From Eubacterium sp. (GTDB taxonomy: Bacteria; Bacillota; Clostridia; Oscillospirales; Ruminococcaceae): a stretch of DNA of 39,407 bases. A program made the translations under genes and the position numbers. The stretch lies in contig JAFLRX010000024.1 in assembly GCA_022511265.1 (NCBI GenBank), positions 1 to 39,407 on the forward strand, given 5' to 3'. A model generated the notes under the pieces. That model made no database searches. It worked only from the letters and a program-made list of their open reading frames with translations, and was not told where the DNA came from. Below, piece after piece: positions 11,113 through 35,896 of this stretch; within the stretch, counting starts at the first letter, position 1; every line of letters begins with the position of its first letter.

Positions 11113-12834
11113 TTATCTGTACTTTTCCAGCATCTGATCTATCAGCTTAAGTATCTCATCTACCGCGTCGGCAACGGGTACTTTTACGCTGAAGCTCTTA
11201 TCACGCGCGGTTATCTCAACGCAGCCCTCTTTAAGGTTGCGGGGGCTTATCACCGCCCTCAGCGGTATTCCCAGCAGGTCGGCATCAGAGAACATAACGC
11301 CCGCGCTGACCTTACGGTCGTCGTACATTACCTCAGCGCCTTTGCTTTCAAGTGTTTCGTACAGGGTATCGGCGGCGGTCTTTACTTCTTCGTCATCCGA
11401 GCGTACCGCGCAGATATGCACCTGCCACGGAGCGATAGGCATCGGCCATATCGGACCGTAATCATCGTGGTGCGCCTCGCAGACAGACGCCGCAAGACGG
11501 CCCACGCCTATGCCGTAGCAGCCCATTATCGGGTTGTGAGATTCGCCGTTTGCGTCAAGGAATGTCATGCCCATGGTCTTTGTGTACTTAACGCCGAGCT
11601 GGAAGATGTTGCCCACCTCGATACCGCGGGACACCTTTATGCTATGCTTGCCGCAGTGCGGGCAGATGCCGCCGTCGGTTATCTTGGCAAAGTCGCCGTA
11701 TTCCTTTATATCAACATCGCGTGAAGGCATAAAGCCCCTATAATGATAATCAGGCTCGTTAGCGCCGCAGACAAGGCTTGTCCCGCCCTGCAGCGACTTA
11801 TCGTACAGCACGGTGCATTTATCGGTTATGCCGACAGGCCCGATAAATCCGGCATGCAGTCCGCTGTCCTCGGTGATAACCGCGGGGTGGAACTCGCAGC
11901 CGAGATAGTTTCTTACCTTGGTCTCGTTTACGTCAAGGTCGCCGCGGATGAAAACCACCACATACGCGTCGTCTTCGTTTTTCTGATATACCACCGCCTT
12001 GACGCTCTTTTTCGGGTCTGCACCCAAAAATTCGCAAACGTCCTCGATGGTGTGCTTGTCGGGGGTGTATACCTTTTCAAGTACTGTATTTTCAAGGGTG
12101 GATATGTTGTCATAAATGCACTCTGCCGCCTCCATATTGGCGCTGTAGCCGCACTCTTCACAGATTGCAATGCTGTCCTCGCCCACGGGGGTGAGCAGCA
12201 TAAACTCATGTGATACGCTGCCGCCCATCATACCGGAATCCGACGCAACCGAGATAACCTCCGGCACGCCTGCGCGGCGGAATACGTTCTCGTATGCCTG
12301 GTGGCACTTTGCGTAATATTCTTCCAGATCCTCCTGCGAGGTATGGAACGAATACGCGTCCTTCATGGTGAACTCGCGCACGCGGATGAGACCGCCCCTC
12401 GGACGTGCCTCGTCACGGAACTTGGTTTGTATCTGATATATCATAAACGGATATTTTGTATAGCTCTGACCGTACTCACGCACCAGCTGCACTGCGGCCT
12501 CTTCATGCGTCATACCCAGCACCATCGGTGCGCCGTTGCGGTCGGTAAAGCGCAGCAGCTCGCTGCCGACAGAGGTGTATCTGCCGGACTCATCCCACAG
12601 CGACGCGGGCATAGCAACCGGGAACTGTACCTCCTGCCCGTCTATCTTGTCCATCTCATCGCGGATTATCTGCTCGATCTTTCTTGTTATGCGGCGCAGC
12701 GGCATATATGACGAGAAAATACCGTTTGCCACATATTTGATATAACCGCCCCTCACCATTATTGCGTGGCTGTCTATCTGACAGTCGGAGGGTCTTTCCT
12801 TAAAGCGGTCGCCTACCAGTTTTTCCAGTTTCAT
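11113..12834 (-). CDS. proS: Proline--tRNA ligase, bacterial type with editing insertion
   Basis: Class II synthetase of 573 residues that charges tRNA-Pro. The N-terminal catalytic part includes the motif 2 region TKFRDEARPRGGLIRVREF. A middle insertion (about 225-385, YbaK-like, which in this family removes Ala from tRNA-Pro) follows. Motif 3 has GCYGIGVGRLAAS, and a C-terminal anticodon-binding domain ends the protein. The ATG at 12834 (MKLEKLVGDRF) is preferred over an upstream in-frame start because AAAGGAC lies before it and the terminator of the T-box covers the upstream codons. Expression should be controlled by the T-box at 12872-13090. Confidence 0.97.
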   Translation of the reverse strand: MKLEKLVGDRFKERPSDCQIDSHAIMVRGGYIKYVANGIFSSYMPLRRITRKIEQIIRDEMDKIDGQEVQFPVAMPASLWDESGRYTSVGSELLRFTDRNGAPMVLGMTHEEAAVQLVREYGQSYTKYPFMIYQIQTKFRDEARPRGGLIRVREFTMKDAYSFHTSQEDLEEYYAKCHQAYENVFRRAGVPEVISVASDSGMMGGSVSHEFMLLTPVGEDSIAICEECGYSANMEAAECIYDNISTLENTVLEKVYTPDKHTIEDVCEFLGADPKKSVKAVVYQKNEDDAYVVVFIRGDLDVNETKVRNYLGCEFHPAVITEDSGLHAGFIGPVGITDKCTVLYDKSLQGGTSLVCGANEPDYHYRGFMPSRDVDIKEYGDFAKITDGGICPHCGKHSIKVSRGIEVGNIFQLGVKYTKTMGMTFLDANGESHNPIMGCYGIGVGRLAASVCEAHHDDYGPIWPMPIAPWQVHICAVRSDDEEVKTAADTLYETLESKGAEVMYDDRKVSAGVMFSDADLLGIPLRAVISPRNLKEGCVEITARDKSFSVKVPVADAVDEILKLIDQMLEKYR

Positions 12835-12871
12835 TGTTGTTGTCCTTTCCAATATTTTTGTAAAAAATAAA

Positions 12872-13090
12872 GCCCTGAGCAAATTAGATTTGCTCAGGGC
12901 GAACGATTAACGTCCGCGGTACCACCTGTTTTCGGTAAAACCGCACTCATTCGCTCTGTAACGGGAGCACCCGTTCTGCCTTGTCGGCAGCGGCTCTAAG
13001 ACGGGTTGGGCGAGTACCTTTAAGGGCTTGCACCGTCCGCCCTCTCTCTGAAAAAGCACTAACGCCTACTGTTTCTTTTCACAGCCTTTG
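12872..13090 (-). promoter_or_regulatory. T-box riboswitch controlling proS
   Basis: A tRNA-sensing leader. Read on the minus strand it has the stem I landmarks AGTA, AGAGAG and GGTGCAAGCC, then the T-box core AGGTGGTACCGCGG (about 12928-12915). A strong terminator follows: GCCCTGAGCAAA / TTTGCTCAGGGC (12900-12872) followed by TTTATTTTTT. Uncharged tRNA-Pro would stabilise the antiterminator and allow proS transcription. A CCC/CCG proline codon occurs near 13000-13008 where the specifier is expected, but I did not fold the RNA. Start and end of stem I are approximate. Confidence 0.93.
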
Positions 13091-13123
13091 ATATATTCCG
13101 CAATCAGCGGTAATTATTCCTGA

Positions 13124-24743: not shown

Positions 24744-27173
24744 TTACGGACGGTCAGAGCGTATGCCCGCCTTGTCCCCGTTCTTTACCGCCGCGTCTAC
24801 CGCCGCCTGTACATGCGCGGGCAGCTTTTTGCGCCCGTTCAGCGAATTTGTCCTTACCAGCGCGGTATCCAGCACGGTGTTGATGTTGTCGGCAATCACG
24901 AAGTTGAGGTTGTTTAATATCACCTCGTCCAGCTCTTTCATGTCCGACTCGTTTTCCTTAGGTATGATGACGGTCTTTACGCCCGCCTTGTATGCCGCCA
25001 TGGTTTTTTCACGCAGGCCGCCTATCGGCAGCACCTTGCCGCGCAGGGTTATCTCTCCGGTCATCGCTACGTCACGGCGCACCGCCATACCCGACAGCGC
25101 GGATATCAGCGCGGTGGTCATGGTCACGCCCGCCGACGGACCGTCCTTAGGCACAGCGCCCTCCGGCGCGTGGATATGTATATCCTTATTCTTGTAGAAA
25201 TCAGGGTCTATCTCATACCTGTGTGCAAGACTTCTTGTCAGGCTGACCGCTATCTTAGCGGATTCTTTCATCACATCACCGAGCGAGCCGGTTATCTCTA
25301 TCTTGCCGCTGCCGTCCAGCACCAGCACCTCCAGCGGCATGATAACGCCGCCGACCGAGGTCCACGCAAGACCGTTAACCAGTCCTGTCTCGTCAAGCTC
25401 GGGTATATCGTCGCTGAGATATTTCGGCGCGCCGAGATAGTCAGGCAGGTTCGCGGGCTTCACCGTCACCTTTGCGTCATCCTGCACCAGCTGGCGCAGC
25501 GCCTTGCGGCAAAGCTTTGCGATGGTACGCTCCAGCGTCCTCACGCCCGCCTCTTTGGTATATTTGTCTATGATATCATACAATGCCGCATCGGTTATCT
25601 TGAACTTCGCGGTCTTTAGTCCGTGCTTTGCGTACTGCTTGGGGATAAGGTGCTTTTGCGCTATGTTGAATTTTTCCTCACGGGTATAGCTACCCAGCTC
25701 GATAACGTCCATTCTGTCCAGCAGCGGCGCGGGTATAGTGTCCAGCGTGTTCGCCGTGGTGACGAACAGCACATCGCTGAGATCTATCGGTATCTCAAGA
25801 TAATGGTCTCTGAAAGATACGTTCTGCTCACTGTCCAGCACCTCCAGCATCGCGCTGGCAGGGTCGCCCTTATAGTCGCTGCCGAGCTTATCTATCTCGT
25901 CAAGCAGCATAACGGGGTTCATGGACTTTGCCTGTGTCAGGGCTTTCGCGATACGGCCCGGCATCGAGCCGAGGTAGGTCTTTCTGTGTCCGCGTATCTC
26001 CGCCTCGTCATGCACGCCGCCGAGGGATACCCTGACATAGTTTCTGCCCAGTGCCGCCGCAATGGACTTAGCCACCGATGTCTTGCCCACGCCCGGAGGT
26101 CCGACAAGGCAGATTATCTGCCCTTTCTTATCAGCGTCCTCCCACTGGTTCAGCGCGACTATCTCAAGTATTCTTTCCTTGACCTTTTTCAGTCCGTAAT
26201 GGTCCTTTTCAAGCTGCTTTTCAGCCTTTACTATATCCTTGCGGTTGGTGGTGTAGGTATTCCACGGCAGCTCTAACACCGCGTCAAGATATGTACGCAC
26301 CACCGCCGCCTCTTGCGAGCCGGGGACAAGTCTCATCAGCTTTTCGCATTCTCTTATCAGCTTGTCGTGGGTGTCGGGGTCAAAGCCTATCTCGTCTATC
26401 CTATCCATGTATTCAAAACCCTCGGTCTGCGGGTCGTCCCCCTCGCCGAGCTGGTTTGAAATTATCCGCATCTGCTCGCGCAGATAAAAATCACGCTGGT
26501 TTTTATCGAGATTGTCGCGCACCTGCTCGCTTATCTCCTGCTCCAGCTTGATTATGCCTATCTCCTCACTCATCACCTTGATAAGCAGCTGCGCGCGCTT
26601 TTTCAGCGTGGTGCATTGCAGCAGCGCCTGCTTATCCTCCGGCTTTAAGTAGATGTTGAACACGATAAGCTCTATCATACGGGCAAGGTTTTTCTCGCCG
26701 ATTATGCCCTTGTACAGTTCTTTCGGCATCTTGGGCGATACCTCGCCGTAGTCGGAAAACACCTCTGACAGCATACGGCACATCGCGCTTTTCTCCGCGT
26801 CGGACATTCTGTCAGACGGCTCGGGCAGCTCGGTCACCGCCGCGGTAAGGTATGGGTCTTTTGTCTCCAGCACCTCCAGCCGCGCGGTCTGAAGTCCCTG
26901 TACCAGCACCCTTGTCGCGCCGTCGGGGGTGTTGAGTGTCTGTCTAATCTGCGCGATAACGCCTATCTTGTATAACTGGGACGCGCCGACGTCGTCCACC
27001 GTCTCGTCTCTCTGCGTCACAAGGAAAATACGTCTGTCGCCCTCTATCGCCGCCTTTATCGCGTCGGTAGAACGCTTTCTCGTAACGTCAAAATGTAATA
27101 TCATATGTGGAAAAATTACCAGCCCTCTGAGTGCAATGACCGGTAAATGTGTGATTGCAGTTTCTTTTTTCAT
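24744..27173 (-). CDS. lon: ATP-dependent protease Lon
   Basis: Cytoplasmic AAA+ serine protease of 809 residues that degrades misfolded and regulatory proteins. The N-terminal substrate domain begins HLPVIALRGLVIFPHM. Walker A is GPPGVGKTS and Walker B is VMLLDEIDKLG. The protease domain has the catalytic Ser in PKDGPSAGVTM and the Lys in the YKAGVKTVIIPKEN region. The ATG at 27173 (MKKETAI) is preferred because AAAGGA lies 9 nt upstream; an ATG three codons earlier overlaps that site. A promoter at 27274-27302 starts the lon-engB-rlmN-aroB run. Confidence 0.97.
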   Translation of the reverse strand: MKKETAITHLPVIALRGLVIFPHMILHFDVTRKRSTDAIKAAIEGDRRIFLVTQRDETVDDVGASQLYKIGVIAQIRQTLNTPDGATRVLVQGLQTARLEVLETKDPYLTAAVTELPEPSDRMSDAEKSAMCRMLSEVFSDYGEVSPKMPKELYKGIIGEKNLARMIELIVFNIYLKPEDKQALLQCTTLKKRAQLLIKVMSEEIGIIKLEQEISEQVRDNLDKNQRDFYLREQMRIISNQLGEGDDPQTEGFEYMDRIDEIGFDPDTHDKLIRECEKLMRLVPGSQEAAVVRTYLDAVLELPWNTYTTNRKDIVKAEKQLEKDHYGLKKVKERILEIVALNQWEDADKKGQIICLVGPPGVGKTSVAKSIAAALGRNYVRVSLGGVHDEAEIRGHRKTYLGSMPGRIAKALTQAKSMNPVMLLDEIDKLGSDYKGDPASAMLEVLDSEQNVSFRDHYLEIPIDLSDVLFVTTANTLDTIPAPLLDRMDVIELGSYTREEKFNIAQKHLIPKQYAKHGLKTAKFKITDAALYDIIDKYTKEAGVRTLERTIAKLCRKALRQLVQDDAKVTVKPANLPDYLGAPKYLSDDIPELDETGLVNGLAWTSVGGVIMPLEVLVLDGSGKIEITGSLGDVMKESAKIAVSLTRSLAHRYEIDPDFYKNKDIHIHAPEGAVPKDGPSAGVTMTTALISALSGMAVRRDVAMTGEITLRGKVLPIGGLREKTMAAYKAGVKTVIIPKENESDMKELDEVILNNLNFVIADNINTVLDTALVRTNSLNGRKKLPAHVQAAVDAAVKNGDKAGIRSDRP

Positions 27174-27273
27174 AATACTCATCCTTTCATAATAATTTGC
27201 CGCTTGTCTCTACACAATATGTCATGTCAATTTTTTCTTATTTCTTGCATCGGCTTGGTATCCGATTGCTACA

Positions 27274-27334: not shown

Positions 27335-28660
27335 TTATTCTCCGTGACCCAGCAGTGACTTGAAATGCCTGCCGCGCTCTTCAAAGTTTTTGTAAAATCC
27401 ATAGCTTGCCGCGGCGGGCGACAGTATACAGCGCACCTTGGTATGCTCTTTTGCCAACGCGACCGCCTCTTCCATATCCTTGGCGAACATTTTTAATATT
27501 TGCGGGTTGGTGACCTCTTTCGCCGCCCTTATACCGCTGTCCGGCAGTATTATCAGGTTTCTTACCGAGGTGTCGGCATTGAGATAATCGCCCAGCGGCT
27601 TATAGGATATGCCTCTGTCCATACCGCCGATTATCAGCGTGTCGGTGTCGGGATAGGCTTTCAGCGCGGCGACCGCGGTCTCAGGCGCGGTGCTGATGCT
27701 GTCGTTGATGTACTCCGCGCCGCCCAGCTTGCAGACGTACTCCAGCCTATGCTCCAGCGGCTTGAACATCATCAGCGACAACACGCAGAAATCCGTATCG
27801 CAGCCGACTAACTGCGCCGCATACAAAGCGATAGAGATGTTATAAAGATTATGCTCGCCGCGCAGCTTGGTCTTTATCTTATCGCCGGAATAATATGTAT
27901 CAAACATATACACACCGCCGCCCCATACTCCGATGTGACCTATGCCTACGCCCGCCTCGACCACCTTTGCGGGGGTATCCGCCATCAGTGTGTCGTTCAG
28001 CGTATCGTTTATTATCAGCGTGTCGCCTTCCTTCTGATAGCGGAAAATGTTGGATTTTGCCGCCGTGTATGCCTCAAAATCCACGTAATGGTCGAGATGC
28101 TCGGGATATATGTTAAGCAGTATGGCGATATTCGGCGAAGCCTTGACGTATTCCAGCTGATGACAGGACAGCTCGCAGACGATAACGTCCATATCGGCAA
28201 ACTCATCCGCACGCTCCAGCGGCGGTACGCCGATATTGCCTATCAGCATGCTTTCCTTTTCGCAGACGGTGACAAAGTGATAGATAAGGCTGGATACCGT
28301 TGACTTGCCCTTTGTGCCGGTCACGCCGATTATCGGAGTATCGCAAAACCGCAAAAACAGGTCGGTCTGGCAGGTTATCTTTGCCTTTATCTCGTCGCTT
28401 ACATAGTTTTTCAGTCCTATGCCGGGCGCTTTCATAATGATGTCATAATCTCCGATCGCCGACAGATAGTCAGACCCGCAGTGCAGTGTGCAGCCCTCCG
28501 CCTCGGCGGGGTCTATTTCGTTCATGTCCGCTATCGCGATACAGGTGCAGCAGTCCAACTCTTTCAGCAGCTTTAGGGTGCTTTTGCCCTCTCTGCCAAA
28601 GCCGAGTATAACAACGCTTTTCCCGTCAAAAAAATCCTTTAATTTCTCTTTTATTCCCAT
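27335..28660 (-). CDS. UDP-MurNAc-L-Ala--glutamate ligase, probably the L-Glu type (MurD2)
   Basis: Mur ligase of 441 residues that adds glutamate to UDP-MurNAc-L-alanine in the cytoplasm. The ATP loop is GVTGTKGKST (112-121). The C-terminal SPAAASYGFYKNF keeps the Ser and Phe of the MurD substrate pocket. Two positions that in E. coli MurD lie at or near the D-Glu site differ: NDSKAT is NDSIST (320-325), and the Lys in GGDGK is replaced by Arg in GGMDRG (346-351). These changes, and a MurL-like epimerase gene ending 10 bp upstream, suggest a MurD2 that takes L-Glu. Canonical MurD remains possible. The ribosome binding site AAGGGG overlaps the upstream stop codon, so the two are coupled. Confidence 0.85.
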   Translation of the reverse strand: MGIKEKLKDFFDGKSVVILGFGREGKSTLKLLKELDCCTCIAIADMNEIDPAEAEGCTLHCGSDYLSAIGDYDIIMKAPGIGLKNYVSDEIKAKITCQTDLFLRFCDTPIIGVTGTKGKSTVSSLIYHFVTVCEKESMLIGNIGVPPLERADEFADMDVIVCELSCHQLEYVKASPNIAILLNIYPEHLDHYVDFEAYTAAKSNIFRYQKEGDTLIINDTLNDTLMADTPAKVVEAGVGIGHIGVWGGGVYMFDTYYSGDKIKTKLRGEHNLYNISIALYAAQLVGCDTDFCVLSLMMFKPLEHRLEYVCKLGGAEYINDSISTAPETAVAALKAYPDTDTLIIGGMDRGISYKPLGDYLNADTSVRNLIILPDSGIRAAKEVTNPQILKMFAKDMEEAVALAKEHTKVRCILSPAAASYGFYKNFEERGRHFKSLLGHGE

Positions 28661-28670
28661 TATTTTCCCC

Positions 28671-29996
28671 TTAAAGTGCCTGCTTTACAAGCTGTAACAG
28701 CTGCCGCGGCACATAATTTTCACTGTCAAAATAGTTTTCTATATCCTCGGCATCAGCGGGACGGTCGGGATATTTTTTGATATAACCGTCCAGCAGCACC
28801 GGCATTTTTTCAGTGCGAAGTTGTGCTGCCTGATACAACGCATATCGCACCTCGGATTTTGTACCGACGCACTCAAATGGCTTGTCGATATCCTCGTATA
28901 TCAAACCGTCGAATATCTCCGACAGCTTTTCGTCCTCTAGCATATTCCGTCCGAATATTCCTGTCAGCGTCTCGTCGTCCAAAAACGCCGCGAGCAAAAT
29001 GTATACGTACAGACATTTTGCGCAGTTGGCGCACCAGCTGTCGGTTTTCGAGCCGAGATTGCAGCTTTGGAACACCGGGAAATACTGCTTATATCTCACA
29101 AATATGCTTGCTATTCTGTATTCGCTCAGCGGGCGCAGCAGGCTGAAATATTCGGTGCCGTCGCTGCCGCCGAGATATTGGTCGGTATACTCTCTGAAAT
29201 CCCGCTCGAACTCGGTGCTTTTGCTGTACTGGTGGTTTACGTTTTTGCCCTTGACGTAGGTCTCGTTGGCACTGCTCTCGTTGGAAAGGGCGATGTACTT
29301 TTTGCCGTTAAGGTACGCGAACAGATACGCCGAGAACGCCACCACCGCCGAAAACGGCGTATGCCCGTTGAGATAGCCGTCCGCGTTGCGTGCGAGCAGC
29401 TCTTTATCTATCGTCCGACGCACCCCGACGATTCCGCTGTCGTCAAAGCCCGCGGCGTTGGCGCATTTCACCGTCGCGCCGCGCGGGTTGATTATGTAGC
29501 ACAATGTATCGTCGTGGTACTGCCGCAGCAGCTCTAACGACACCACACTGTCCTTTCCCCCGCCGACAGGTACAAGAAAACCTGATAAGGGCTTATCAAT
29601 TTTCGCATCGGGTGCGGCGTCACTTTGAGGGATTATCGTCATAAAATCCTCAAAATCCGCATTGATCTTATTCCGATAGAAAAACTCTCCCAAGCCGTTG
29701 AAATACAGCTTTTTCCACCACCGACACTGTTCGGCGGTAAGGCTGCCGCAATTGACCCTTACCACGGGCGGGCAGGCACACTTCCAATAGCTGACCAGCT
29801 CTGCCATGCCGATGTTGAAGATAATGTATTCACCCAGCGGCGAGATGTTTTCAAGCGATCCCTTATCGTATTTCCATGACGGGTGAAACTCATATTCACC
29901 TATCGAAAAATGAAAGGAAAAGCCGTCCTCGTCTATGGTATAGCTGTGATATATAAATTCTTTATGCTTTTGTCTTAATGTCTCGTAAAGGCTCAT
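28671..29996 (-). CDS. murL: MurL-like epimerase (UDP-MurNAc-L-Ala-L-Glu to D-Glu), PP-loop family
   Basis: A 441-residue cytoplasmic protein. An N-terminal domain of about 135 residues is followed by a PP-loop ATP-binding motif (VGGGKDS, 144-150), a SNESSANE stretch (about 238-245), an NHQYSKS stretch (254-260) and a cysteine cluster WCANCAKC (321-328). From memory this pattern matches MurL of Xanthomonas, which epimerises the terminal L-Glu of UDP-MurNAc-L-Ala-L-Glu using ATP. The following gene is a murD-type ligase only 10 bp away, which is the best context support. The alternative is an unrelated PP-loop enzyme. The ATG at 29996 is chosen for its AAGG site 9 nt upstream. Confidence 0.75.
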   Translation of the reverse strand: MSLYETLRQKHKEFIYHSYTIDEDGFSFHFSIGEYEFHPSWKYDKGSLENISPLGEYIIFNIGMAELVSYWKCACPPVVRVNCGSLTAEQCRWWKKLYFNGLGEFFYRNKINADFEDFMTIIPQSDAAPDAKIDKPLSGFLVPVGGGKDSVVSLELLRQYHDDTLCYIINPRGATVKCANAAGFDDSGIVGVRRTIDKELLARNADGYLNGHTPFSAVVAFSAYLFAYLNGKKYIALSNESSANETYVKGKNVNHQYSKSTEFERDFREYTDQYLGGSDGTEYFSLLRPLSEYRIASIFVRYKQYFPVFQSCNLGSKTDSWCANCAKCLYVYILLAAFLDDETLTGIFGRNMLEDEKLSEIFDGLIYEDIDKPFECVGTKSEVRYALYQAAQLRTEKMPVLLDGYIKKYPDRPADAEDIENYFDSENYVPRQLLQLVKQAL

Positions 29997-30005
29997 AAAA
30001 ACCAT

Positions 30006-30062
30006 CCTTTTTAATTCGGAATTATGAATTCGGAATTCGGAATTATAGGCTGCATAACCGGT
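30006..30062. repeat. AATTCGG short direct repeats
   Basis: The gap between tmcAL and murL contains GGAATTATGAATTCGGAATT and a further GAATTCGG-like unit in a row. It is a short low-complexity repeat with no obvious function. Confidence 0.4.
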
Positions 30063-31454
30063 TTAGTCCTCCCACCGCTCGCCTTTTTGATATTCCTCTG
30101 CGGCGGCTCTGCACTCTAATCCCCGTGCATAAGCTCGGCGCATTTGATTTAGACTCATAACATTTGCTCCACCTTCATAGTCGGGGTCTTTCTCCTGGAT
30201 ACCGTCATTTTGCCAATAGCATACTTCACAAATATCAAAATCGTTATAATCCTCAAAAGTATATTTGCCGCAAATCGGGCACTTACGCTTTTCCGCATTC
30301 CGTATTATTACTGGCTTTGCGGTATATTCTCCGCCGCAGGGGCGTTTATTCTCGTATGCCAGCACATAAAGGTCATGCGCCCTGCTTTGAAGCTCCGCCT
30401 GCCGTGCCGCCGTATCGCTTTTGCCAGCCAGTGCGGAAAGCGAGGTATCTATCGGTATCGGACAGCTTGCCGCCGACAGTATTTCTTTTCCCCTGCCGTT
30501 CATGCCCAGTATGCGCAGATAGGCGGGGCTTTCATCGGCAAGCTGTTTTGTTATCCCTAAAAACGCGCACATCACCAGCCGTCTTGCGCCGGACAGGGTG
30601 CTGCGCTTTGACTTTATCGCGCCGTACAGCCCGTCAAGGGTTGTCGCTTCTCTTATAGCGCGGTATATACGGTTTTCCGCGCCGTTGGATATATCCGGCA
30701 GCTGTGCCAGCTCGTCAACGCTAAGCGTCCTCAGCCTTGCGAGTATCGCCGTCTCCAGCCGTGATATACAAACGCTCTCACCGTTATTATACGGCAGAAA
30801 TGCCGAAAGGTCAAGTCCTTTTGCCAATCTTTCCCGTATTTCTTTCGCGCTTAAAAAACCTTTTTCTCCGCTTTTTCCGTCATGCTCCGCGCCGTGTCTT
30901 TTTACGGCAAAGGGAACAATCGGGCTGCCAAGTGCCGATAACGCGCGTATGTACTCTATACCTAGGATATCGTTTGGGCTGCCGAGGGCGTTTAGTACAT
31001 CATCGCTTGCCCCGTTATCCGACAGGGTCTTGGACAGAGCGGCGGGATAGCTAAGCCCGCTTTTAAGGTATTCGCCCAGCGCAGCCTTATCCGCGCCGTC
31101 TGCCGCGGCTGCGGCGGTTTTCAGCAGTTCAATATCGCCGCACTCGCTGCCAAAGCTGAGTACATCCACACAGCCCAGCATATCCAGCATACCGACCGCC
31201 GAGCGTGCAAACCGCTCCGCACTGCCAAGCGCGTACACGGCGGGCAGCTCGATAACGAGGTCTGCGCCGCATTTCAATGCGGCGGCGGTGCGCCCGTATT
31301 TATCGGCGACGGCGGTATCTCCGCGCTGGACGTAGTCCCCGCTCATCACGCAGATGATATGGGTCGCCCCGCACAGCTCGCGAGTACGCGCGATATGGTA
31401 CATATGCCCGTTGTGAAACGGATTGTATTCGGCAACTATTCCGGCGACTTTCAT
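30063..31454 (-). CDS. tmcAL: tRNA(Met) cytidine acetate ligase TmcAL fused to a CPCC zinc domain
   Basis: A 463-residue protein. The first 385 residues match TmcAL, which uses ATP and acetate to acetylate the wobble cytidine of elongator tRNA-Met. The adenylation motif is NPFHNGH (11-17), with VMSGDYVQRGD (36-46) and a DLVIELP stretch. Ordinary TmcAL ends near the segment KPVII (380-384). Here the frame continues with a cysteine-rich module: CPIC at 392-395 and CEVC at 409-412, then YWQNDG and a SLNQMRRAY helix, which looks like the small CPCC domain normally found alone. I see no frameshift at the junction. What the zinc module does is unknown; RNA or protein binding is a guess. A divergent ackA lies upstream. 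Confidence 0.88.
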   Translation of the reverse strand: MKVAGIVAEYNPFHNGHMYHIARTRELCGATHIICVMSGDYVQRGDTAVADKYGRTAAALKCGADLVIELPAVYALGSAERFARSAVGMLDMLGCVDVLSFGSECGDIELLKTAAAAADGADKAALGEYLKSGLSYPAALSKTLSDNGASDDVLNALGSPNDILGIEYIRALSALGSPIVPFAVKRHGAEHDGKSGEKGFLSAKEIRERLAKGLDLSAFLPYNNGESVCISRLETAILARLRTLSVDELAQLPDISNGAENRIYRAIREATTLDGLYGAIKSKRSTLSGARRLVMCAFLGITKQLADESPAYLRILGMNGRGKEILSAASCPIPIDTSLSALAGKSDTAARQAELQSRAHDLYVLAYENKRPCGGEYTAKPVIIRNAEKRKCPICGKYTFEDYNDFDICEVCYWQNDGIQEKDPDYEGGANVMSLNQMRRAYARGLECRAAAEEYQKGERWED

Positions 31455-35629: not shown

Positions 35630-35705
35630 TGGGGTGTCGCCAAGCGGTAAGGCAGCGGACTCTGACTCCGTTATTTCGAGGGTTCAAATCCTTCCACCCC
35701 AGCCA
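35630..35705 (+). tRNA. tRNA-Gln (anticodon CUG), CCA encoded
   Basis: The acceptor arms TGGGGTG / CACCCCA pair over 7 bp, and CCA is encoded at 35703-35705. The D arm is GCCAAGCGGTAAGGC. The anticodon arm GCGGA-CTCTGAC-TCCGT presents CTG, which reads CAG (Gln). The T arm is GAGGG-TTCAAAT-CCTTC. It stands alone with its own promoter and terminator. Confidence 0.97.
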
Positions 35706-35706
35706 G

Positions 35707-35739
35707 AAAAAAGCACTTGCAATTTGCAAGTGCTTTTTT
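35707..35739 (+). terminator. Terminator of tRNA-Gln
   Basis: The arms AAAAAAGCACTTGC and GCAAGTGCTTTTTT pair perfectly with a 5-nt loop. A near copy follows the tRNA-like sequence at the right edge of the window. Confidence 0.95.
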
Positions 35740-35743
35740 AACT

Positions 35744-35896
35744 AAATCCGTCCTTACGGACGGGTGAAATCCCCTGCTGGGATGAAATCACTTCGTGGTT
35801 AAATCCCGCTTCGCGGGGAGAATGGACGGATTTAATTTCATCTGCGCCGGCAGATTTCATCCGAACGTGTTCGGATTTCATCGCACAATGTGCGAT
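35744..35896. repeat. Array of seven small hairpins in a conserved GAAATC/GATTTC frame
   Basis: Directly after the tRNA-Gln terminator lie consecutive short palindromes: 35748-35763 (CCGTCC/GGACGG), 35769-35783 (ATCCC/GGGAT), 35787-35799 (ATCAC/GTGGT), 35805-35817 (CCCGC/GCGGG), 35840-35855 (ATCTGC/GCAGAT), 35859-35876 (ATCCGAAC/GTTCGGAT) and 35880-35896 (ATCGCAC/GTGCGAT). The first four are joined by TGAAAT or TTAAAT, the last three by ATTTCA. An outer inverted repeat, AAATCCGTCC (35744) and GGACGGATTT (35824), encloses the first four. The stems differ in sequence while the linkers are constant. A gene frame runs through it by chance but has no start signal. No function is known to me. Confidence 0.85.

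Follow-up and report, generated by a model that had tools for sequence, protein, structure and literature searches.

We describe a gene pair from a 39,407-nucleotide stretch of DNA (hereafter the window; contig JAFLRX010000024.1, positions 1 to 39,407, assembly GCA_022511265.1) of a Eubacterium sp. of the family Ruminococcaceae, in which a murL homologue is followed by a predicted murD2. The two genes are very probably the only recognizable source of peptidoglycan D-glutamate (D-Glu) in this organism, with the MurD2-MurL route replacing glutamate racemase (MurI). This assignment is based on homology, gene pairing, the residue signature of the ligase, the absence of the usual D-Glu enzymes from the genome and the grouping of the ligase with Xanthomonas MurD2, from which the activity of the pair in this organism is predicted. 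D-Glu would be made by a ligase-epimerase pair instead of a racemase of the free amino acid: MurD2 is predicted to ligate L-Glu to UDP-N-acetylmuramoyl-L-alanine (UDP-MurNAc-L-Ala), MurL would carry out the ATP-dependent L-to-D epimerization of the UDP-MurNAc dipeptide with formation of AMP, and MurE, MraY, MurG and the remaining steps of the pathway would proceed as usual. A first-pass annotation of the window had proposed this route as probable for a Firmicute; the genomic checks, specificity residues and tree presented below support that proposal.

The MurL homologue

Both open reading frames (ORFs) are intact and lie on the minus strand in the order murL then murD2, with the PP-loop protein carrying GGGKDS and WCANCAKC and its stop codon separated from the Mur ligase by 10 bp, just as the first-pass annotation had placed them. 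The sole NCBIfam match of the PP-loop protein is NF041275, over residues 71-441 (371 residues; E 2.1e-72, 244 bits). NF041275 (MurL_Xanthmoales) is the NCBI equivalog model of MurL, named for Xanthomonadales, with a curated cut-off of 700 bits; it scores the MurL of Xanthomonas sacchari at 836 bits and one Pseudonocardia plasmid protein at 323 bits. No protein exceeded 700 bits in any of 60 near genomes or of 391 genomes sampled across the class, and 14 control genomes contained no match to the model. The window MurL and that of X. sacchari are 31% identical.

We aligned 49 chosen MurL rows, comprising 40 from a larger MurL set, 6 further Clostridia, X. sacchari and 2 Pseudonocardia. The GGG-x-DS motif, Cys315, Cys325, Cys328, Cys331, Cys379, His215, His258 and Glu243 are invariant in all of them, and the W-C-x2-C-x-K-C pattern is likewise kept in 49/49; both Pseudonocardia plasmid copies read GGGRDS. 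WCANCAKC together with Cys315 forms a possible metal or Fe-S site. A search of solved structures with the single MurL sequence gave no match at E 1e-3, and a 40-row MurL profile matched the PP-loop protein TtuA at E 3.6e-4 over positions 144-181. MurL thus has the GGKDS-type PP-loop in common with TtuA and other PP-loop ATP pyrophosphatases but differs from them in that the similarity is limited to the loop region. TtuA functions in tRNA thiolation, and PP-loop enzymes as a rule act by adenylation of a carboxyl or carbonyl group. Such a loop fits the conversion of ATP into AMP given for the MurL reaction in a 2021 review (PMC8788868), and the PP-loop of MurL would presumably act by adenylation. 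Residues 294-348 weakly resemble DUF6395 (PF19932) in 36 of 40 MurLs scanned, with the window protein below the cut-off of that family.

Specificity residues and phylogeny of the ligase

The murD model TIGR01087 scores both the window ligase (279 bits) and the MurD2 of X. sacchari (298 bits) above its cut-off and therefore cannot separate MurD from MurD2. As described in the part of the 2021 review dealing with these enzymes, mutants showed that L-Glu use is set by Glu197 and Arg358 of Xanthomonas oryzae MurD2, equivalent to Asp182 and Lys348 of Escherichia coli MurD; Lys319 affects L-Glu use in E. coli, where the K319T enzyme admits L-Glu (PMC8788868). A Xanthomonas double mutant at the Glu and Arg positions is reported to move towards D-Glu. 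The window ligase has Glu187 and Arg349, the MurD2 combination, at the Asp182 and Lys348 positions. Its NDSIST and GGMDRG blocks, both of which had served as cues in the first-pass annotation, correspond in the alignment to NDSKAT and GGDGKS of the E. coli enzyme.

We surveyed these positions in 114 MurL-linked MurDs, one of which was too short to align. Glu-Ile-Arg at 182-319-348 (E. coli numbering) occurs in 107 of the 113 alignable sequences, rows of common descent that cannot be counted as independent, as well as in X. sacchari and in 4/4 unlinked MurDs of the window's genus. It is absent from 22 control MurDs of MurI-encoding Clostridia, which carry Asn-Ile-Lys (16), Ala-Lys-Arg (3), Asp-Lys-Lys (2) or Asp-Ile-Lys (1). 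Asn-Ile-Lys is also found in three second murDs of MurL-encoding genomes (G088, G120 and G290) and in two MurDs from genomes that lack both MurI and MurL. Since 17 of the 22 ordinary MurDs have Ile at the Lys319 position, NDSIST was rejected as a marker; what marks a MurD2 is the combination of Glu and Arg. The cue from GGMDRG stood, its Arg at the Lys348 position recurring in 3 of the 22 controls; Glu187, which the first-pass annotation had not mentioned, is informative as well (Glu in 0/22).

For the final MurD tree, 45 of 119 earlier rows were chosen and combined with MurDs of E. coli, Sphingomonas, Bernardetia, Bacteroides and Pusillibacter. One branch (100/99) separates 30 MurD2 rows from 21 canonical ones, with X. 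sacchari on the MurD2 side; the tree is unrooted and X. sacchari sits on a long branch. X. sacchari could not be placed in a first tree (87 of the 114 linked rows after thinning), where it was the sole row outside Clostridia and Bacteroidota. The window ligase thus groups with the MurL-linked MurD2 of X. sacchari, as expected of a MurD2, and is separated from canonical MurDs. MurDs of MurI-encoding sister genera in the same family lie on the canonical side, so the window's genus holds a different MurD rather than a converted family MurD. The features of a canonical MurI-dependent MurD, namely a genome-encoded MurI and a MurD lacking Glu182-Arg348, are both missing here.

D-glutamate sources in the genome

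The assembly (2.26 Mb, 57 contigs, 99.87% complete) contains no match to PF01177 or TIGR00067 (MurI) at E 1e-3 and no D-amino-acid transaminase above cut-off, a strict threshold that was exceeded in 1 of 14 control genomes. Its single class IV transaminase was considered as a D-amino-acid source and rejected, being IlvE (496 bits with NF009897 versus 53 with the model for D-amino-acid transaminase). One murD is above cut-off, the window ligase; the remaining Mur-like matches score below it and were dismissed as candidates for a second murD. The genome searches suggested by the first-pass annotation, for murI, a D-amino acid aminotransferase and another murD, thus all came back empty at these thresholds. 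MurE, MraY, MurG, MurA and FtsZ are above their cut-offs and an FtsW-like protein reaches 316 bits against 337.5. PF01168 has two members, in frames of 400 aa and 262 aa.

The mraY and ftsW-like ORFs of this genome are adjacent, whereas E. coli has murD at that place. This empty slot was dropped as a sign of displacement, because the MurI-encoding sisters G198 and G352 also have murD on a contig other than that of their mraY match (in G198 itself below cut-off).

Distribution of MurL and MurI

Among the 60 near genomes, 38 encode MurL and 19 have MurI above cut-off; the corresponding numbers in the class sample of 391 genomes are 16 and 328. All 36 genomes of the window's genus that were searched encode MurL (the copy in G015 is cut by a contig end) and none has MurI above cut-off; G006, G010 and G024 show weak matches (22-36 bits; cut-off 146.65). 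Likewise, none of the 16 MurL-encoding genomes of the class sample has MurI above cut-off: 14 have no match, as deduced for 7 of them from gaps in the list of matching genomes (17 gaps for 17 unlisted genomes), and two (G156 and G367) have a weak one at E about 1e-8. When the two sets were united (445 genomes, six common to both), MurI was above cut-off in 0/52 genomes with MurL versus 343/393 without it; a Fisher test was applied to these counts, in which related genomes are not independent.

The pair is dispersed over many families of Clostridia, with MurL still a minority trait in the class (12 of 222 genera). Seven family codes (f1, f29, f31, f51, f54, f62 and f75) contain both MurL-encoding genomes without MurI above cut-off and MurI-encoding genomes without MurL, and both types coexist even within single genera, g39 and g112 (G290 versus G065 and others; G284 versus G151 and G389). 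Thus, the exchange of MurI and MurL was repeated.

The best 80 of 570 MurL loci from a genome collection search included rabbit metagenome-assembled genomes named uncultured Ruminiclostridium sp., other Oscillospiraceae, Lachnospiraceae, Erysipelotrichales and Bacteroidota. Ten named MurL-encoding genomes taken from these 80 loci were searched and none has MurI above cut-off. None of 40 genomes tested, 31 with MurL, has a D-amino-acid transaminase above cut-off. MurL-MurD2 pairs are present in several records named Bacteroidota (L161, L162, L172, L181, L185, L186 and others); L129 bears the name Alistipes, yet it clusters with Clostridia, and its assembly may be misnamed.

Gene pairing and fusions

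Among 127 distinct MurL rows, murD comes directly after murL on the same strand in 110, is fused to it in 4 and overlaps it in X. sacchari; in the remaining 12, the stretch examined contains no full murD. The fusions (L039, L040, L041 and L169) combine MurL and MurD2 in one ORF (frames of 840-1019 aa) and occupy four different places in the first MurD tree, which suggests that they arose separately. Trees built for MurL and for MurD from 114 pairs agree in 56 of 111 splits (shuffled mean 0.19). We favor, with some reserve, the view that murL and murD2 travel together as a cassette, which on many occasions in Bacillota and Bacteroidota has taken the place of glutamate racemase and, in most cases, of the resident murD as well; in its fused forms, the ligase would hand the L-Glu intermediate straight to the epimerase.

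In Pseudonocardia, two plasmid MurL-like orphans (L189, 4764-6164; L190, 3845-5239) adjoin an opposite-strand gene with WD40 repeats, and no murD was found beside them.

Counter-evidence and alternative explanations

Several observations weigh against a MurD2-MurL route replacing MurI. By the curated cut-off of NF041275, the window MurL does not belong to the family, and the HMM comparison that the first-pass annotation had called for, favorable in the extent of the match, falls short in score. Six MurL-linked MurDs have Asp-Ile-Arg, i.e. Asp rather than Glu at 182. Twelve of the 127 MurL rows lack a full murD nearby: L131, L140 and L196 hit contig ends, L155 ends 2 kb on, four from the window's genus (L055, L060, L062 and L068, in G009, G003, G006 and G020) have a MurD2 elsewhere, these separated MurD2s forming one group in the tree, two are the Pseudonocardia plasmid orphans, and L124 and L149 remain. 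Sub-cut-off matches to the MurI model occur in the five genomes already named among the 52 with MurL (G006, G010, G024, G156 and G367) and, at 21-44 bits, in all five cultured strains among the ten named genomes (Eubacterium sp. ER2, Clostridiales bacterium 1_7_47_FAA, Mordavella massiliensis An582, Pseudobutyrivibrio xylanivorans DSM 14809 and Ruminococcus flavefaciens Y1), the other five having none. These are probably other members of that superfamily; a glutamate racemase may be among the weak matches of relatives, and the window's own genome has none of them. Finally, 3 of 31 MurL-encoding genomes searched for murD keep a second, canonical-type murD (G088, G120 and G290, with MurL loci L088, L090 and L084), and in these three no MurI and no D-amino-acid transaminase above cut-off was found. 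The MurD2-MurL route does not explain the D-Glu source of that second ligase.

It is improbable that the ligase is an ordinary MurD that adds D-Glu from an unrecognised racemase or transaminase while the MurL-like protein does something else. The murD call by TIGR01087 would favor this explanation, but the model makes the same call for X. sacchari MurD2. Other sources of D-Glu may exist, as 50 of the 393 genomes without MurL also lack MurI above cut-off, some of them being incomplete or having a lower-scoring MurI, and a match resembling D-amino-acid transaminase, at 225 bits below the cut-off of 277, is present in one genome with neither protein (G044, L207). Such an explanation would leave aside that the ligase has the L-Glu residues of Xanthomonas MurD2 and its place in the tree, that MurL and MurI are mutually exclusive in the sampled genomes, and that murL and murD are adjacent or fused.

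Less probable still is that MurD2 adds L-Glu but the cell wall keeps it, or that MurL acts on a later precursor. The low identity between the window and X. sacchari MurLs would allow for a different activity, whereas the full conservation of the common motifs across the 49 aligned rows, the ordinary scores of MurE and later enzymes and the in vitro confirmation of actinobacterial orthologues by others, as summarized in the review's account of them (PMC8788868), all argue against this explanation. Reliance on external or recycled D-Glu, with a vestigial gene pair, is the least probable of the explanations considered: free D-Glu is plausible in the gut, from which several close relatives were sampled, but MurL is present in all 36 genomes searched in the genus, MurL and MurD trees agree and the MurD2 signature predicts L-Glu use. 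We thus retain replacement of MurI by MurD2-MurL as by far the most probable explanation.

Relation to known systems

The chemistry of the route is already known; what is new is its occurrence in Bacillota and Bacteroidota, the repeated replacement of MurI and the fusions. According to the review's sections on the pathway, both reactions were shown for the X. oryzae enzymes, and orthologues from Micromonospora sp. and Salinispora tropica were confirmed in vitro (PMC8788868). The window pair resembles X. oryzae MurD2-MurL (XOO_1320 and XOO_1319) in the Glu and Arg specificity residues, the common MurL motifs and the lack of MurI, and the X. sacchari pair in gene order, murL then murD. It differs in its host, a Bacillota, in the divergence of its MurL and in its genomic neighborhood, and its activity is a predicted one. 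Judging from description rather than sequence, the Micromonospora and Salinispora pairs are of the same predicted kind but belong to a different phylum (PMC8788868). In the canonical MurI-MurD route of E. coli and most Clostridia sampled, by contrast, the racemase makes D-Glu before ligation.

In the parts consulted, the 2021 review confines the route to Gammaproteobacteria, Alphaproteobacteria and rare actinobacteria (PMC8788868) and a 2018 review adds low-similarity orthologues in a fungus, cyanobacteria and an amoeba (PMC5808125); term searches of the two turned up neither MurL in Firmicutes or Bacteroidetes nor a MurL-MurD2 fusion. Within the open-licence PMC literature, we found no paper that places MurL in Clostridia or describes such a fusion; the murL of Brachyspira, where it appears in PMC2650404, is a name for an ordinary glutamate racemase. 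The MurD2-MurL link may already be present in some databases: a JGI protein close to a Bacillota MurD2 bears the name L-glutamate ligase, and database matches of MurL carry the Pfam accessions PF26298 and PF26299. Such genes mostly go under the source names D-glutamate ligase and hypothetical protein, so that the D-Glu metabolism of these species is probably misannotated.

Should the route operate in Clostridia, for example in Ruminococcus flavefaciens and Pseudobutyrivibrio xylanivorans, these bacteria would be expected to escape MurI inhibitors but to be hit by inhibitors of MurD2 or MurL, which have been proposed as narrow-spectrum agents. The availability of cultured strains and natural fusions makes the mechanism directly testable.

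Features of the locus and neighboring genes

The longest murL reading (28671-30005, 444 aa) begins at an alternative ATG, 30005, upstream of ATG 29996. We prefer the start at 29996, which the first-pass annotation had also chosen, because AAAGGA lies 8 nt 5' of it and runs into ATG 30005, and because the database protein P0005, identical to the window MurL (100% across 99% of the query), has 441 aa.

Table 1. Coordinates of the murL-murD2 pair, its motifs and signals, and the flanking genes in the window
Feature	Position	Strand	Remarks
murL homologue	28671..29996	-	441 aa, ATG 29996; NF041275 E 2.1e-72, 244 bits against cut-off 700
murD2, predicted UDP-MurNAc-L-Ala:L-glutamate ligase	27335..28660	-	441 aa; TIGR01087 279 bits
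MurL PP-loop motif GGGKDS	29547..29564	-	Residues 148-153 of the 444-aa reading; GGG-x-DS in 49/49 chosen rows
MurL WCANCAKC	29013..29036	-	Residues 324-331; its Cys and Cys315 are four Cys invariant in 49/49 chosen rows
MurD2 Glu187 codon	28100..28102	-	E. coli Asp182; X. oryzae MurD2 Glu197
MurD2 Arg349 codon	27614..27616	-	E. coli Lys348; X. oryzae MurD2 Arg358
MurD2 Ile322 codon	27695..27697	-	E. coli Lys319; not diagnostic
murD2 ribosome binding site AAGGGG	28667..28672	-	Overlaps murL stop codon; from sequence
murL ribosome binding site AAAGGA	30005..30010	-	From sequence
Upstream neighbor, PRK13670-type nucleotidyltransferase (TmcAL-like)	30063..31454	-	309 bits, below model cut-off 360
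Downstream neighbor lon	24744..27182	-	After 152-bp gap from murD2

The TmcAL-like gene ends 57 bp ahead of the 444-aa murL reading, and short repeated AATTCCG units lie between the two genes at about 30013-30045 (minus strand). A promoter-like consensus match is located at 27302-27274, within the gap between murD2 and lon. The TmcAL-like gene and lon flank the pair in part of the genus, with other surroundings in the rest. Elsewhere in the window, a T-box leader (12892-13091, minus strand) precedes an ORF at 11113-12882 that by eye resembles prolyl-tRNA synthetase, and a tRNA gene (35630-35702, plus strand) is followed by a Gut-1 RNA (35739-35809, plus strand) that scores barely above its gathering threshold.

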